A DNA stretch of 64,000 nt from Deltaproteobacteria bacterium (GTDB taxonomy: Bacteria; Desulfobacterota; GWC2-55-46): contig JACOUO010000029.1 in assembly GCA_016177845.1 (NCBI GenBank), forward strand, positions 62,001 to 126,000, given 5' to 3'. Below are positions 6,972-17,951 of this stretch, piece by piece (the first letter of the stretch is position 1; every line of letters begins with the position of its first letter). The notes beneath the pieces are model-generated. The model worked only from the letters and a program-made list of their open reading frames with translations. It had not been told where the DNA came from and searched no databases. A program made the position numbers and the translations under genes.

Positions 6972-7973
6972 TCAGTAATTTCTATCCAAGGCGGCAACAA
7001 TGTTTTCCACATCGAACGCAAAGCCTGTAGCTGCGCACGGATACCCGTATCTCTCAAGGAGGGTGTCGTACCTTCCTCCGCCGAGAATGGGCTTTCCTAT
7101 GCCTGAGGCAAACCCTTCAAAGATAATGCCCGTATAATAATCAAAGCCCCGCACCTCTCCAAGGTCTATGGTCACCGAATCCTTAAGCCCTTTTTCAGTG
7201 ATGATGTTAACCACATTCTGGAGATAATCGAGATTGCCCTGCGTAGCCTTATCTTTTGTGAATGTAGCCGCTTTCTTTATGACCTCTTCCTCTCCGTAGA
7301 AAGTAGTGAGGTTTAAAAGCAGTCCCCTGTCAGCCTTATCGACCTGTTTGGTTGAATTATTAAGTATTTCTTCAAGCCCTGAGGTGTCTTTTATGGCTAT
7401 GGCTTCCTTTATAAGGTCTTTTTCCTGTTCCGAGACCGGAAGCTTTTCAAGGATTGACCTTAAAAAACCGACATCCCCTATATCTATCTTGAAATTCTTA
7501 AGCCCCATTGATCTAAGGGCCTCTATTCCCATGATTATCATCTCGGCATCCGCCTCAGGGGATGCCTTTGCGGAGATATACTCAGCGCCTATCTGGAGGA
7601 CTTCCCTGCTCTTGCCGTCCCTCGGCTCCTGATATCTCAGCACATTTTCGTTATAGCAGAGCTTAAGCGGAAGGGGATAGTCCCTCATGCGGGTAGCTAC
7701 AACCCTTGCTATCTGAGGTGTGATGTCAGGCCTGATGGCTACGACCCTGCCTGTTGAGGGGTCGATGAACTTCAGAACCCTGTCTTTAAGGTTCTCGCCC
7801 ATGCCAAGAGAAAGGACTTCCACATATTCAAGAAGCGGGGTTATTACCTTCTTAAACCCGTACTTTTCGAATATGGCGAGTATGCCTGATTCTACTTTGC
7901 CGATTTTTTTGGACTCTTCCGGCAGGATGTCCCTGACACCCTGCGGGAGCGATATGGTTGGAGAATTAATCAT
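6972..7973 (-). CDS. hisZ: ATP phosphoribosyltransferase regulatory subunit
   Basis: A class II aminoacyl-tRNA-synthetase-like protein that pairs with short HisG to make the first enzyme of histidine synthesis. Markers are LPQGVRDILPEE at the N-terminus, IRPDITPQIARVVATR, LCYNENVLRYQ and GFDYYTGIIFEGF. HisRS-only anticodon-binding sequence is absent, which separates HisZ from HisS. The open frame begins 42 bases earlier (8015), but those codons lie inside the hairpin at 7988-8024. The ATG at 7973, with GGAAAGGG before it, gives a normal HisZ start (MINSPTISLPQG). Histidine synthesis releases AICAR (ZMP), which ties it to the ZTP riboswitch. Confidence 0.92.
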   Translation of the reverse strand: MINSPTISLPQGVRDILPEESKKIGKVESGILAIFEKYGFKKVITPLLEYVEVLSLGMGENLKDRVLKFIDPSTGRVVAIRPDITPQIARVVATRMRDYPLPLKLCYNENVLRYQEPRDGKSREVLQIGAEYISAKASPEADAEMIIMGIEALRSMGLKNFKIDIGDVGFLRSILEKLPVSEQEKDLIKEAIAIKDTSGLEEILNNSTKQVDKADRGLLLNLTTFYGEEEVIKKAATFTKDKATQGNLDYLQNVVNIITEKGLKDSVTIDLGEVRGFDYYTGIIFEGFASGIGKPILGGGRYDTLLERYGYPCAATGFAFDVENIVAALDRNY

Positions 7974-7987
7974 CTGCCCTTTCCGCA

Positions 7988-8024
7988 ACAAAAGCCGTGT
8001 TACATAACATAACACGGCTTTTGT
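7988..8024 (-). terminator. Inter-gene hairpin between serA and hisZ
   Basis: ACAAAAGCCGTGTTA and TAACACGGCTTTTGT form a perfect 15-bp stem with a 7-base loop. On the minus strand the 3' arm ends in CTTTTGTTG, a weak T run. It may act as a partial terminator or RNA processing site that lowers hisZ-purA expression relative to serA. Confidence 0.7.
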
Positions 8025-10879: not shown

Positions 10880-11020
10880 GAGAAAATCAGGCAGGGTTCG
10901 GACAGGCGCAAAATAAGAAGATAACTTATTAATAGTATTACTTTTTATGCCCTTGCCATTCCCTTTTATCCCACTCTCCTTTCATCGGAGTTTTTGCTCT
11001 CGATAAGACCCTGAATCCCA

Positions 11021-11153
11021 AAAAAAAGACCGCCTGAGGCAATTCAAAAGGATTCCATGAAAAAATCCTCTAAAATGCCCAGACGGTCGACTAATATATT
11101 TTTCCCGCTCCCCGGTGGTCAGCCACCTTAATTCCGTCAGTTGCGGAAGAAAG
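11021..11153 (-). promoter_or_regulatory. ZTP (pfl) riboswitch with overlapping intrinsic terminator
   Basis: On the minus strand, P1 pairs UUCUUCCGC (11153 downwards) with GCGGGAA, enclosing AACUGACGG, a GGUGG-CUGA-CCACC hairpin and the conserved CCGGGGAGCG. The conserved 3' block CCGUCUGGGCA lies at about 11086-11076. The same block (GACCGUCUGGG) is the 5' arm of a terminator whose 3' arm GCCUCAGGCGGUC lies at 11040-11028, followed by seven U residues. Ligand binding would hold the 3' block in the aptamer and prevent termination, the known ZTP ON-switch logic. Downstream genes are the transaminase, serA, hisZ and purA. Sequence fit is strong; ligand response is inferred. Confidence 0.93.
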
Positions 11154-11171
11154 TTTTAAATTGTGAGTGCT

Positions 11172-11200
11172 ATAATAATCCTGAACAGGTTTTTTGTCAA
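11172..11200 (-). promoter_or_regulatory. Strong sigma-70 promoter driving the riboswitch
   Basis: On the minus strand a perfect TTGACA (11200-11195), a 17-base spacer and TATTAT (11177-11172) place the start point near 11165, just before the aptamer. It lies directly after the cox subunit II stop, so the metabolic operon has its own promoter. Confidence 0.85.
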
Positions 11201-11239
11201 GTCATTTCCTCTCCCCTCCTAACGACAGCCTTACCGCCT

Positions 11240-12190
11240 TTATTTCAGGCTCTTGATATATTCAATAAGGGAATTTATCTCACCATCCGAGAGAATACCC
11301 TTTTGAGGAGGCATAATGGGCTGATAGCCGACTACGACATCGGCATTGGGCGTAAGCTCGGAGCTCCTTATGTATTCGTCATCTATTGTTATCTCTCTCT
11401 GCTTGCCGTCGGTCGTGACCTTCACCTTTGTCCCGTAAATGCCTTTGAATGATGGCCCTATCCTCTTAGAGCCGTCCGTTGAATGGCAAGCGACACATCC
11501 CTTTGAGCTATAAAGCTCTGCCCCTTTCTTTGCGTCGCCTTTTGCTGTCGGGGCTCCCGGAGGAGGAGGGGCCGCCTGGGCCTCCGCCTTACCCTCAAGC
11601 CAGCCGTTGAATTTATCCTCGCTCATGACAACTGCCTTGGAAAGCATGGCTGAATGATTTGTGCCGCAGTATTCCGCGCAGAAAAGGTCGTATGTGCCTT
11701 CCTTGTCTGCGGTAAACCAGACTGACTTAACTGAGCCGGGAACCGCGTCCTGCTTTACCCTGAAGGCAGGCACAAAGAAGCTGTGCAATACATCCCGTGA
11801 TTCAATGTTCATCCTTACCGGCTTATTTACGGGAACATTCAATGTGTTGCTTAGCTTTCCGTTAGGATACTCAAAGCTCCAGACCCACATCTGCCCTGTT
11901 GCCTTTACCGCAAGAGCGTCCTTGGGTATTTCTTCCCGTATGGTTTTATAATCACCCCAGCCGAGATAAAACATCAGCAGCACTATTGCTATTGAAAGCC
12001 CAAGAAATGTCAGTTCAAGAGGGGCGTGCCCTTCGATATCAGTAGGGTTGGGATTCTTTTTCCTTGTGTACTTAAAGGAAAAATAGAGCATCAGAAATAT
12101 AATAATCGAGAACAGGGCTACGCATATCCCTGTAATGATAAAGAACTGGGAATCTATCGCCTTGCCCAATATGCTGGTTGCCCCGAACAT
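11240..12190 (-). CDS. ctaC: caa3-type cytochrome oxidase subunit II fused to cytochrome c
   Basis: Electron-entry subunit of the oxygen reductase. Two N-terminal membrane helices (about 16-38 and 58-78) lead to the cupredoxin domain, with SRDVLHSFFVPAF supplying the first His and CAEYCGTNHSAM the remaining CuA ligands. A Pro/Ala linker joins a C-terminal cytochrome c domain with CVACH and a distal Met in PIMPPQKG. The 316-residue fusion defines the caa3 class, which takes electrons from soluble c-type donors. It is the last gene of the sco-I-III-IV-II operon and has no clear terminator before the next promoter. Confidence 0.96.
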   Translation of the reverse strand: MFGATSILGKAIDSQFFIITGICVALFSIIIFLMLYFSFKYTRKKNPNPTDIEGHAPLELTFLGLSIAIVLLMFYLGWGDYKTIREEIPKDALAVKATGQMWVWSFEYPNGKLSNTLNVPVNKPVRMNIESRDVLHSFFVPAFRVKQDAVPGSVKSVWFTADKEGTYDLFCAEYCGTNHSAMLSKAVVMSEDKFNGWLEGKAEAQAAPPPPGAPTAKGDAKKGAELYSSKGCVACHSTDGSKRIGPSFKGIYGTKVKVTTDGKQREITIDDEYIRSSELTPNADVVVGYQPIMPPQKGILSDGEINSLIEYIKSLK

Positions 12191-12193
12191 ATA

Positions 12194-12487
12194 TTAGCTC
12201 CTGAACGCTATATCAGAATAGACAAGCCATACCACAACAAACATTGTCGCCAATGCCACGCCGATGAATAATCTGAAAATCCCTGCCTCGTACTTAATGT
12301 GCATGAAAAACGCTACGACCAAAAATGCCTTTGCAGAGGCTATTATGAAAGGAGAGATCAAGCTGAGCCTGCCCATGTGCATGCCTGAGACCGCTACCGT
12401 AAGCCATGTAAGGGCAACAAGCGCTAACCACACATAGACAAAGATGCTGTATTTGATGGGCCTGTGCGCCTTTTCGGTATAATCCAT
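12194..12487 (-). CDS. ctaF: Cytochrome c oxidase subunit IV-like protein
   Basis: A 97-residue protein with three membrane helices (about 17-37, 43-65 and 70-92) matching the CyoD/CtaF/COX4-prokaryotic group: HxxHPxxxY-like start, KAFLVVAFFMHIKYE core. Such subunits help assembly or stability of the oxidase. It lies 3 bases upstream of subunit II and 15 bases after subunit III. Confidence 0.88.
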   Translation of the reverse strand: MDYTEKAHRPIKYSIFVYVWLALVALTWLTVAVSGMHMGRLSLISPFIIASAKAFLVVAFFMHIKYEAGIFRLFIGVALATMFVVVWLVYSDIAFRS

Positions 12488-12502
12488 AAAAAATACCCCC
12501 TG

Positions 12503-13123
12503 TTACCTTATCAGATAAAAGAGCGGGAAAAGGTATATCCAGATAACATCTACAAGGTGCCAGTAAAGCCCTCCGTTCTCAATCTTGACATAATCGCTCT
12601 GAGTCACCTTATCCCTCATTACAAAAAATGTAATGACCGCAAGCACGCTCATGCCTGCTATCACATGGAGGGCATGGAGGCCGGTCATAAAAAAGTAAAG
12701 CCCGAAGAAGAGTATCTCTCCCTTGGGCCTGCTTAAAAGGGCCTCAGCCCCGGGATATAGGCCGTGGACTATCTTCGCATCCCATTCAAAATACTTATTC
12801 ACAAGGAATACTGCCCCAAGGACGATGGTAACTCCAAGGAGCAGCAGCGTGAGTTTTTTATTGCCTTTTTGAAGGGCCGATATGGAAAGAGCTACCGAAA
12901 GGCTGCTTGTCAACAGGACAACAGTATTGATTGAGCCTACAAACAAGCTCAACTCCGAGCCTGCGTTGATAAAATCAGTTGAATACCTGTAGCGGAATAT
13001 CGAATAAAGGAGGAACGGCCCAAAGAAAAGGAACAGCTCGGTAAAGAGGAAGAGCCACATCCCTATCTTTGCCCCTGTATAGTCCTTATGTTTATTGGCG
13101 GCAATCTCCGCTGTCTCGTTCAT
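12503..13123 (-). CDS. ctaE: Cytochrome c oxidase subunit III
   Basis: A 206-residue protein with about five to six membrane helices. It starts KIGMWLFLFTELFLFFGPF and contains GLHALHVIAGM and YWHLVDVIWIYLFPLFYL, the conserved subunit III blocks. It binds subunit I and protects proton uptake and turnover stability. It starts one base after the subunit I stop, so it is coupled to it. Confidence 0.95.
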   Translation of the reverse strand: MNETAEIAANKHKDYTGAKIGMWLFLFTELFLFFGPFLLYSIFRYRYSTDFINAGSELSLFVGSINTVVLLTSSLSVALSISALQKGNKKLTLLLLGVTIVLGAVFLVNKYFEWDAKIVHGLYPGAEALLSRPKGEILFFGLYFFMTGLHALHVIAGMSVLAVITFFVMRDKVTQSDYVKIENGGLYWHLVDVIWIYLFPLFYLIR

Positions 13124-13124
13124 C

Positions 13125-14735
13125 TTAGTCCCTTTTAAAGTGGTACGGCCCGTACTTCACCTCAGGTATTTCCTCAAAATTCTCTTTTGGAGGAGGCGAG
13201 GGCACCTGCCATTCAAGGGTTGCCCCTCCCCACTGGTTCGCCTGCGCCTTTTTTCCTTTGAACAGGGCATGGATAAGATTCCCGACCATAAGGATAACCC
13301 CTGCCACAAGTATCCACGACCCGACAATGGATATCAGCTGCCCGTTCGTGAATTGGGGGAGATAATCATAGTACCTTCTTGGCATGCCCTGAAAACCAAG
13401 GACAAAGAGCGGAAAAAAGAGCGTATTAAAACCTATGAACAGCAGTAATAGTGCAACATTGGCTAATTTAGTGTTGTACATCCTGCCGAACATCTTTGGA
13501 AACCAGTAATGGAGAGCCGCAAAGAAACCAAACCCCGCACCCCCGAACTTTACATAATGGAAGTGCGCGACTACAAAATATGTATCATGAAGATGGATAT
13601 TGAGGCTTAAAGCCCCAAGGATAAGCCCTGTCAGCCCGCCTATGGAAAAAAGAAAGATGAAGGCGAAAGCATAGAGAAGAGGGGTTGCCGCCTCAAGAGA
13701 GCCTTTGTAGAGACTGCCCACCCAGTTATAGACCTTTATGGCGCTCGGTATGGCGACAAAAAAGGTAAAAAGAGAAAAATAAACCCCTGCCGTGTAGCTG
13801 AACCCGCTTACGAACATATGATGCCCCCAGACAAGGGAGCCTACTGCCGCAATCCCTATGCTTGAGTACGCTACCGCCTTATATCCGAATATCGTCCTGC
13901 GGGCGAATACAGGCACTATCTCTGAGATAGCCCCCATTGCCGGAAGTATCATTATGTAAACCGCAGGGTGGGAGTATATCCAGAAGAGATGCTGATATAA
14001 TATGGGGTCTCCGCCCTTTGCTGGGTCAAATATGCCTATGCCCAAAAGTCTCTCCGCAACTACAAGCATAAGGTTAACTCCAAGTATCGGGGTGGCAAGT
14101 ATCTGTATCCATGCTGTGGCATATACAGCCCACACAAAAAGCGGCAGCCTCATCCATGTCATGCCCGGGGCTCTTAGCCTGTGTACAGTGGTCACGAAGT
14201 TTATTCCCGTAAGGATGGAAGAGAACCCCAGCACTACAACCGCGCTCAGGGCAAGCGTTACATTGGTGCCTGTGCGGATGCTGTACGGGGCGTAAAAGGT
14301 CCAGCCTGTGTCAGCAGGGCCGTTTGCGATAAGCAAAGTTAATATCGCAAGGAATGCCCCTGCCATGTAAAACCACCATGAAAGGAGATTGAGCCTCGGG
14401 AAAGCCACATCCTTTGCCCCTATCATTATCGGGAGCAGGAAGTTGCCGAAAACGCTTGGTGTAACCGGGATAATGAAGAGGAACAGCATTATTACGCCGT
14501 GGAGCGTAAAGAGAGAGTTATATGTGTTTGCCGCCATTATGGTCGGCCCGCGGGTGATAAGCTCAAGCCTCATAAAAAAGCCAAGAGTTACACCCACAAG
14601 AAAGAGCGAGAGGATGGCGACGAGGTAGAGGATGCCTATCCTTTTATGGTCAGTGGAGAAGATCCAGGATAATATGCCTCCCCTGCCTTCTTTTTGCAGG
14701 TAGTTTCCTTGTGCGCCGGCGGCGTAGTCGCTCAT
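13125..14735 (-). CDS. ctaD: Haem-copper oxidase subunit I, A2-like
   Basis: Catalytic subunit that reduces oxygen and pumps protons. At 536 residues it has 12 helices, haem a His in TLHGVIM, CuB His in YSHPAVYIMILP and WGHHMFVSG, and haem ligands in HDTYFVVAHFHYV. YSHPAVY replaces the usual HPEVY, so the K/D-channel Glu is absent and a Tyr-Ser pair takes its place. This is the mark of the A2 subfamily known from thermophile-type caa3 enzymes. Its start overlaps the SCO gene stop as TAATG. Confidence 0.97.
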   Translation of the reverse strand: MSDYAAGAQGNYLQKEGRGGILSWIFSTDHKRIGILYLVAILSLFLVGVTLGFFMRLELITRGPTIMAANTYNSLFTLHGVIMLFLFIIPVTPSVFGNFLLPIMIGAKDVAFPRLNLLSWWFYMAGAFLAILTLLIANGPADTGWTFYAPYSIRTGTNVTLALSAVVVLGFSSILTGINFVTTVHRLRAPGMTWMRLPLFVWAVYATAWIQILATPILGVNLMLVVAERLLGIGIFDPAKGGDPILYQHLFWIYSHPAVYIMILPAMGAISEIVPVFARRTIFGYKAVAYSSIGIAAVGSLVWGHHMFVSGFSYTAGVYFSLFTFFVAIPSAIKVYNWVGSLYKGSLEAATPLLYAFAFIFLFSIGGLTGLILGALSLNIHLHDTYFVVAHFHYVKFGGAGFGFFAALHYWFPKMFGRMYNTKLANVALLLLFIGFNTLFFPLFVLGFQGMPRRYYDYLPQFTNGQLISIVGSWILVAGVILMVGNLIHALFKGKKAQANQWGGATLEWQVPSPPPKENFEEIPEVKYGPYHFKRD

Positions 14736-15505
14736 TATTTCTCCTGTCCTTTGCCTTTCGTAAGGTACATCAGGAATCCGGCGGCAAAAACAAGGGTCAC
14801 AGTGCCTGCAATTTTAAGGACATTGAAGACATATGTCCTTTTATTCGGGTCGTAGCTGTAACAGAAAAGAAGGGCCTTTGGTATGGAGGCCCCCACCCTT
14901 TCTTCCGACGCCTCAAGGAGCGCAAGCTTCAGGTCAAAGGGAAGGAATTTCTCGCCGTATATATACCTGATAATCTTTCCGCTCGGAGAGACGACAACAA
15001 GTGCTGTGGGGTGATTGAACTGCTCGCCTTTTTTTATGTAATTGAAACCGATGGCCCGGGTTATTTTTGAGATATTCTCCTTATCCCCGGTAAGAAACCT
15101 CCAACCGTTCTCAGGGAAAGGCTTTGAAATGGCCTTCAAATAATTTTTTTTCTTATGGACGGCGTTCTCAGATGAATCTTTTTCATCAAAACTGATGGTT
15201 ATGACCGAGTAATCCCTGAGGGCCTCAGCATCAAGCTTCCCAAGGACATCGGCGATATTGGACAGGACATTATTACAGATATTCGAGCAACTGTAGTATG
15301 CCAATGATATGATGGCAGGCTTTTTTACAAGAGAGCCTAATCTGACCTTTTTGCCTGATTCCGAATAGAACGAAGCGTTAAGCGGAATAGCGCTGCCGAG
15401 CTTTTCATCTATTCCCACCTCGACGATATTGCCGGCGAAAGAGGTCGGGAGAAAGGAAAAAAATATTACAGCAATAAGCAGACATTTGGACACCACGCTT
15501 TTCAT
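14735..15505 (-). CDS. sco: SCO1/SenC-type copper chaperone
   Basis: A thioredoxin-like protein that delivers copper to the CuA site of subunit II. It has a signal peptide (cleavage near SFA-GN), the CSNIC metal motif in YYSCSNICNNVL and the distal His in FNHPTALVV. A C-terminal membrane helix near 233-250 anchors it. It is the first gene of the oxidase operon, as is common. The ribosome site is weak. Confidence 0.92.
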   Translation of the reverse strand: MKSVVSKCLLIAVIFFSFLPTSFAGNIVEVGIDEKLGSAIPLNASFYSESGKKVRLGSLVKKPAIISLAYYSCSNICNNVLSNIADVLGKLDAEALRDYSVITISFDEKDSSENAVHKKKNYLKAISKPFPENGWRFLTGDKENISKITRAIGFNYIKKGEQFNHPTALVVVSPSGKIIRYIYGEKFLPFDLKLALLEASEERVGASIPKALLFCYSYDPNKRTYVFNVLKIAGTVTLVFAAGFLMYLTKGKGQEK

Positions 15506-16319: not shown

Positions 16320-17951
16320 ATGGTGAACCGCAATCTTATAATCCTGCCGCTATTAGCTGCGCTTTTCCTGTTCGCGGGAAAGGTCTTTGCGGGTGACGCT
16401 CCCCCGATGTCTGAGGAGGAGTTCTCAAAGGCCAAGCAGATCTACTTTGACAGGTGCGCAGGCTGCCACGGCACTCTGAGAAAAGGCGCAACAGGCCCCA
16501 GCCTGACAACGGATAAGACCCAGGCAATACCTGTCCAGGCCCTTGAGACGCTTCTTAGCGAAGGCACGCCCGGCGGCATGCCTCCGTGGAAGAACATACT
16601 CTCAAAACAGGACATAACCCTTGTAGCCAAATACCTCCAGAACGAGCCCCCTCAGCCTCCGCAGTGGGGCCTTGAGGACATGAGAAAATCATGGAAGGTC
16701 TATGTGCCTGTTGAGAAGAGGCCCGTCAATCCTCCTAACGGCGGCACAAACTGGCAGAACTTCTTTGGCGTAATATTGAGGAATGCCGGAAAAGTCGCCA
16801 TAATCGACGGAGATACCAAAAAAATAGTTACTACCCTTGACACAGGCTATGCCGTCCACATCTTAAGGACATCCGCAACCGGAAGATACATGTACTCGAT
16901 AGGAAGGGACGGCAAGGCCACCCTCATAGACCTGTGGGCAAGCCCGCCGAATATCGTTGCAGAGATAAAGACAGGCTTTGACGCAAGGTCCATCGATACC
17001 AGTAAATTCGCCGGTTCAGACCACATGGACAAGCACGACGGCGATTCATTCAACTACCTTGACAGATACGCGATAGTCGGCGATTACTGGCCGTCTCATT
17101 ATGTCATCATGAAAGGCGATACACTTGAGCCCCTCAAGGTCGTAAGCACACTCGGCTACACCTATGACACCAATGAATATCTTCCTGAAGCAAGGGTAGC
17201 CGCCATTGTCGCCTCGCACTCAAAGCCCGAGTGGGTCGTTAATATTAAGGAGGCCGGGGTCGTCCTGCTCGTAGATTACAGCAAGCTTGAGAACGGCACC
17301 ATAACCGAGACCCGCATAGACGCTGAAAGGTTCCTGCATGACGGCGGATGGGATTCCACAAAACGCTACTTCATGGTCGCGGCGAATATGAGGAACAAGG
17401 TCGCTGTCATAGACACGGTTGAACGGAAACTTGTCGCGCTTGTCGATACAGGCAATAAACCCCACCCCGGAAGGGGCGCGAACTGGGATGACCCGAAGTA
17501 CGGCCCTGTGTGGGCTACAACTCATCTCGGAGAGGGTAAAATCTCGGTTATCGGCACAGACCCCATAAGGCATTCCAGATATTCATGGAGGGTCGTAAGG
17601 GAGTTACAGACAGCGGGCAACGGCCTTTTCGTCAAGACCCACCCGAAGAGCAATAATATCTGGGCGGATAATACTCTTTCAAAGGACCTGAAAGACGCTC
17701 AGACCATTACGGTTTTCGATAAGAACAACATCGACGCGGGCCCCACGAATATCAAACTTACGGATAAGGGGAAGATAGTCCACCTTGAATACAACAAGGC
17801 AGGGGATGAAGTCTGGATATCTGTATGGGACAATGACGGCGAGATAATCGTTATCGATGATAAGACGCGGCAGATAAAAAACCGCATCAAGGGGCTTGTG
17901 ACCCCGACAGGCAAATTCAATGTCTACAACACAATGCTTGATATCTATTAG
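16320..17951 (+). CDS. nirS: Cytochrome cd1 nitrite reductase
   Basis: Periplasmic enzyme reducing nitrite to nitric oxide. Residues 1-24 are a signal peptide. The small cytochrome c domain has CAGCH at 46-50, and an eight-bladed d1 domain follows. His180 in GYAVHILR is the proximal d1 ligand by family analogy. His300 (VASHSKPEW) and His340 (RFLHDGG) match the two active-site histidines that bind nitrite. The length of 543 is standard. The ATG follows AAAGGAGCGGG. The gene stands alone between its own leader and a strong terminator and is surrounded by haem d1 synthesis genes. Confidence 0.97.
   Translation: MVNRNLIILPLLAALFLFAGKVFAGDAPPMSEEEFSKAKQIYFDRCAGCHGTLRKGATGPSLTTDKTQAIPVQALETLLSEGTPGGMPPWKNILSKQDITLVAKYLQNEPPQPPQWGLEDMRKSWKVYVPVEKRPVNPPNGGTNWQNFFGVILRNAGKVAIIDGDTKKIVTTLDTGYAVHILRTSATGRYMYSIGRDGKATLIDLWASPPNIVAEIKTGFDARSIDTSKFAGSDHMDKHDGDSFNYLDRYAIVGDYWPSHYVIMKGDTLEPLKVVSTLGYTYDTNEYLPEARVAAIVASHSKPEWVVNIKEAGVVLLVDYSKLENGTITETRIDAERFLHDGGWDSTKRYFMVAANMRNKVAVIDTVERKLVALVDTGNKPHPGRGANWDDPKYGPVWATTHLGEGKISVIGTDPIRHSRYSWRVVRELQTAGNGLFVKTHPKSNNIWADNTLSKDLKDAQTITVFDKNNIDAGPTNIKLTDKGKIVHLEYNKAGDEVWISVWDNDGEIIVIDDKTRQIKNRIKGLVTPTGKFNVYNTMLDIY

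Follow-up and report, generated by a model that had tools for sequence, protein, structure and literature searches.

A predicted ZTP riboswitch ahead of a serine-synthesis operon, and related switches ahead of central carbon and electron-transport genes in the same bacterial class

In the uncultured bacterial class to which the source genome belongs, ZTP riboswitches appear to form a global switch for enzymes of the reductive TCA cycle (isocitrate dehydrogenase (IDH), AclBA-like proteins and SucCD/Kor) and for electron supply by Rnf and PntAB, a reading to which we assign a probability of about 0.6. ZTP has been proposed as an alarmone for 10-formyl-THF deficiency. The window, by which we mean the whole 64-kb stretch of DNA analyzed here, encodes one such RNA, very probably a ZTP ON riboswitch that acts by transcription termination, ahead of a transaminase-serA-hisZ-purA operon. 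The window switch is itself an ordinary member; the surprise is in the targets across the class, which include carbon-fixation and electron-transport operons outside the window.

Results

ZTP switches across the class

We identified ZTP switches in 47 of 63 genomes of the class. In the sampled phylum they occur in 25 of 395 genomes, 14 of them from this class. Nearly all named relatives are MAGs, labeled 'Deltaproteobacteria' (e.g., GWB2_55_19 and GWA2_55_10), and the class may correspond to GTDB GWC2-55-46.

The source genome encodes two further ZTP switches (58.1 bits each), located at C18:436044-435956 and C18:247878-247788. One precedes rnfC (TIGR01945, 522 bits) and the rest of an rnfCDGEAB cluster. 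The other precedes a monomeric IDH (PF03971, 1360 bits) and then two genes, the first similar to the citryl-CoA synthetase large subunit/ATP-citrate lyase and carrying the citrate-binding domain PF16114. The second encodes a 903-aa protein in which CoA-binding and CoA-ligase domains were recognized, along with a weak match to citrate synthase; for its orthologue at locus L120, matches were found to the small subunit of citryl-CoA synthetase and to ATP-citrate lyase alpha. Two POR/KOR-type genes were also identified in the source genome, as were purH and fhs, both away from its three ZTP switches. RuBisCO was not found in this genome.

A first survey covered 96 switches with flanking genes, from the source genome and its relatives. 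Monomeric IDH is the target at 31 loci (families f1, f3, f4, f7, f8 and f11), Rnf at 29 (f1, f7 and f11) and a class-V, AGT-type aminotransferase gene (AGT) with serA at 20 (f1 only); the minor targets are a CPA2 antiporter (5), sucCD-korA (2), pntAB (2) and single cases. Six additional switches from four further genomes follow the same pattern (IDH with or without acl, Rnf, sucCD and pntAB). Genes for SucCD are behind ZTP switches in f11, with korA too where the DNA reaches that far, and pntAB is behind them in three genomes (L122, L079 and L238). Absent among the identified class targets are purH, fhs, glyA and folD; the window operon includes purA, but its first genes are AGT and serA. No monomeric IDH was found in the complete genome G051, where the switch precedes an unrelated NADP-IDH (NF006156, 635 bits) followed by aclB-aclA. 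Finding the same switch ahead of an IDH that is unrelated to the monomeric enzyme suggests that function, rather than gene ancestry, is controlled.

Two kinds of transporter gene were also observed behind ZTP switches: genus g10 has a CPA2-type cation/proton antiporter in this position in five genomes (L057, L075, L088, L093 and L103), and G051 has a KUP-like potassium transporter (L119). Neither has an obvious one-carbon link.

It is possible, albeit doubtful, that ZTP mainly signals a need for NADPH and reduced ferredoxin, with IDH operating oxidatively alongside PntAB and Rnf, and does not serve CO2 fixation. The three genomes with switched pntAB are consistent with this, and both IDH and Rnf work with low-potential reductant or NADPH. 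However, IDH is followed by the citrate-cleaving aclB-aclA, and family f11 has ZTP switches ahead of sucCD (with korA); these genes encode steps of the reductive TCA cycle rather than sources of NADPH, although the direction of the steps is not readable from sequence.

The ZTP aptamer in the window

The original prediction was based on conserved pfl/ZTP blocks, ACCACCGGGGAGCG and CCGUCUGGGCA. Both were found in the leader, and a covariance-model search recovered the ZMP-ZTP family over the full model (1-86) at 60.9 bits, above the gathering score of 39 bits, with an E-value of 2e-7 (Table 1). This is the sole Rfam match in the 64-kb window.

Table 1. Coordinates of the leader elements and operon genes in the window
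Feature	Position	Strand	Evidence or remark
-35 hexamer TTGACA	11195..11200	-	consensus scan
-10 hexamer TATTAT, 17-nt spacer	11172..11177	-	consensus scan
ZTP (pfl) aptamer, RF01750	11070..11154	-	60.9 bits; P1 covariation in relatives
Pseudoknot 5' strand GACGG	11134..11138	-	partner 11082-11086
Pseudoknot 3' strand CCGUC	11082..11086	-	within conserved block CCGUCUGGGC
Intrinsic terminator hairpin	11028..11088	-	RNAfold; 5' arm 11088-11076 = aptamer 3' block
Terminator U8 tract	11020..11027	-	sequence
Class-V aminotransferase (AGT/serine-glyoxylate aminotransferase-like), 381 aa	9638..10783	-	Pfam PF00266
serA, phosphoglycerate dehydrogenase, 527 aa	8055..9638	-	TIGR01327, 664.9 bits, cut-off 454
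hisZ, ATP phosphoribosyltransferase regulatory subunit	6972..8015	-	TIGR00443, 333.6 bits, cut-off 271.65
purA, adenylosuccinate synthetase, 429 aa	5609..6898	-	PF00709, 631 bits

Helices P1, P2 and P3 and the pseudoknot between P1-P2 and the P3 loop are all present, with covariation in P1 and P2 and, separately, in the pseudoknot. In relatives, 5 of the 6 pairs of P1 show changes in both partners. The GACGG/CCGUC pseudoknot is invariant within the class, and the ZTP RNAs of other lineages differ from it by compensatory changes: across 33 ZTP RNAs it is 99.4% paired, and two of its five pairs have changed on both sides (A-U/G-C and G-C/U-A/A-U). The window aptamer has the U and UGG adjoining the pseudoknot, which we take to be the ZMP contacts. 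Among the 33 sequences UGGG is invariant and the U is present in at least 90%, and the U after the first block and the UGGGC after the pseudoknot strand are retained in every target group displayed.

These observations bear on whether the class could use the ZTP scaffold with an altered ligand, such as a carbon or redox metabolite. Such a ligand would explain the rTCA and Rnf targets, which fall outside folate and purine metabolism class-wide, and the GACGG/CCGUC version of the pseudoknot is specific to the class. We consider the idea highly improbable: the pseudoknot version is compensatory, with pairing kept, and AGT-serA and purA are targets that suit ZMP. In another family, the same version is found ahead of a canonical target, fhs (L245 and L248). 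Because the U and UGGGC core is unchanged and fhs switches elsewhere share the GACGG version, a change of ligand appears unlikely.

Promoter, terminator and predicted mechanism

The promoter had been described as perfect. A sigma-70 promoter is present upstream of the aptamer (TTGACA-17-TATTAT, 11200-11172), and with 11 of 12 consensus bases it is near-perfect. Promoters with at least 9 of 12 consensus bases are found upstream of 89 of 92 class ZTP aptamers, as compared to 65 of 460 shuffles.

The 5' arm of the terminator, GACCGUCUGGGCA, pairs with a 3' arm that ends at 11028 (about -35 kcal/mol), and the hairpin is followed by the U8 tract. Since this 5' arm is the conserved 3' block of the aptamer, the terminator does reuse the second block, as was originally proposed. 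Of the first 17 nt in the block-2 stretch, RNAfold pairs 14 to the arm preceding the T run. The fold of the full leader is the terminator, and P3 alone is weak (-1.5 kcal/mol); the terminator hairpin and P3/pseudoknot are predicted to be mutually exclusive. A terminator that captures the aptamer 3' block was identified in all 93 usable class leaders versus 62 of 480 shuffles, the usable set omitting L104 (contig end) and two matches below the cut-off, L051 (38.3 bits) and L043 (33.7 bits). The latter two lack an overlapping terminator and were not counted as switches. They precede genes of the pntAB/inorganic-pyrophosphatase type and could be degenerate or translational variants.

We predict that transcription begins shortly after the -10 hexamer, at about 11165, and proceeds through the aptamer. 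With ZMP or ZTP bound, the P3-pseudoknot would be held, the 5' arm of the terminator would be unavailable, and AGT-serA-hisZ-purA would be transcribed. With no ligand, the downstream arm would capture the 3' block to form the U8 terminator, and the operon would be off. The riboswitch class and the termination mechanism of the original prediction are thus supported by the RF01750 match and the aptamer-overlapping terminator; ligand binding and the ON direction in vivo are predicted from this architecture. The window leader is one copy of a cassette of strong promoter, aptamer and overlapping terminator that recurs class-wide, ahead of IDH-aclBA, sucCD(-korA), rnfCDGEAB, pntAB and AGT-serA.

A cytochrome c oxidase cluster (sco-like, coxA, coxC and coxB; 11200-15505 (-)) ends 40 nt upstream of the -35 hexamer of the ZTP promoter. 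These genes are on the same strand as the switch, making read-through into the riboswitch possible; such read-through, or an additional promoter within the 240 untranslated nt that separate the terminator from AGT, could bypass the switch. A constitutive leader, with a relic aptamer and with transcription of the operon supplied by cox read-through or by an internal promoter in the gap, would fit this layout but is very improbable, as covariation, terminator and promoter are conserved across many genera. Also in the window, 16320-17951 (+) encodes a large protein with an N-terminal cytochrome-c-like motif that by eye resembles cytochrome cd1 (NirS); it has no NCBIfam match at 1e-20.

The operon behind the window switch

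The order transaminase-serA-hisZ-purA, on the strand of the aptamer, agrees with the original prediction. The start codon listed for hisZ is GTG, and the real start may lie internally. The closest solved relatives of AGT are serine-glyoxylate and serine-pyruvate aminotransferases, the nearest being the serine-glyoxylate aminotransferase 6pk1. Because SerC has no match in the source genome, AGT probably serves as the operon's phosphoserine transaminase.

The promoter-aptamer-terminator cassette recurs before the AGT-serA operon at 20 loci, which come from 19 genomes of the family, and is thus not a chance occurrence. The order AGT-serA-hisZ-purA was found at 38 of 80 sampled related loci, including MAGs named Zetaproteobacteria, and a ZTP leader, as detected with a model of the class's ZTP aptamers, at only 15 of the 80. 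No ZTP switch was found in the Nitrospinota and Zetaproteobacteria genomes that share AGT-serA. Because the gene order is widespread and most loci lack a ZTP leader, the operon is older than, or independent of, the switch. Control by ZTP is non-essential to the operon, given that most relatives have AGT-serA-hisZ-purA and no switch.

The presence of hisZ under a ZTP switch had been considered worthy of note. We do not favor the view that hisZ is a meaningful target of ZTP: this gene order is often found where the switch is lacking, and distant ZTP cassettes lack hisZ. The gene is probably an incidental passenger. HisZ belongs to a ZMP-producing pathway, and it is not obvious how more of it would relieve an excess of ZMP. 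Serine synthesis is indeed under the switch, as had been proposed, but this is less unusual than was supposed, with precedents in Bacillus and Oceanobacillus (PMC9481103), in a Binatia MAG and in other distant MAGs.

Distant loci

We identified ZTP-AGT-serA-purA cassettes in the Binatia MAG (L202/L255) and in two distant MAGs (L249 and L251). These share the operon core behind an RF01750 switch, but differ in the lack of hisZ and in having a consensus GGCG-type pseudoknot. A ZTP match of 39.9 bits at L253 (G411), accompanied by a sequence resembling a terminator, lies ahead of a distant AGT-like gene; the genes after it look like those for peptide deformylase and for methionyl-tRNA formyltransferase, which uses 10-formyl-THF. 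Three loci in G+C-rich genomes (L243, L244 and L246) have full-length aptamers of at least 57 bits near the starts of genes and no evident downstream terminator, and are possibly translational switches; at L243 there are two copies of the aptamer, 3.3 kb apart.

Discussion

In its aptamer architecture, the pseudoknot beside U and UGG, the terminator that captures the 3' strand and the predicted ON logic, the window leader is the same as the ZMP switch of T. carboxydivorans, a transcriptional ON switch in which the ligand stabilizes the pseudoknot against the terminator (PMC7337938). It differs from canonical ZTP switches in its targets. Those switches precede one-carbon and purine genes such as purH, fhs, pfl, glyA and folD (PMC2864571), whereas here the target is AGT-serA-hisZ-purA, and in the class also Rnf and IDH-ACL.

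Control of serine synthesis by ZTP is already known: tandem ZTP/glycine riboswitches precede the first gene of the serine pathway in Bacillus and Oceanobacillus (PMC9481103). Common to both systems is that ZTP would turn on serine synthesis to feed one-carbon units. The window leader differs in that there is a single aptamer and no glycine aptamer, the first gene encodes an AGT-type transaminase, and hisZ and purA are included. In a literature search that did not extend to supplementary gene lists, we found no relevant paper linking ZTP/ZMP riboswitches with Nitrospira, isocitrate dehydrogenase, Rnf, ATP citrate lyase or carbon fixation.

Based on gene content, we consider it rather probable that ZTP raises reductive carbon metabolism together with the supply of serine and one-carbon units. 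When 10-formyl-THF is low, ZMP/ZTP would rise and increase reductive carbon metabolism, low-potential reductant and serine, and hence one-carbon units. With TCA-type carboxylation and no RuBisCO, the path to 10-formyl-THF would run from acetyl-CoA via pyruvate and 3-phosphoglycerate to serine. If the path does pass through serine, then IDH/ACL/SucCD-Kor, Rnf and PntAB would be the upstream supply for the deficiency that SerA meets. The direction of the TCA steps, the physiological purpose and the co-regulation of the switched operons are each presumed in this proposal.

If this is correct, the class has a ZTP regulon outside of folate and purine metabolism. Reported targets are almost all folate and purine genes. 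Here the ZTP signal would extend to the central metabolism of carbon and energy, and would tie both carbon fixation and energy conservation to the sufficiency of one-carbon units.
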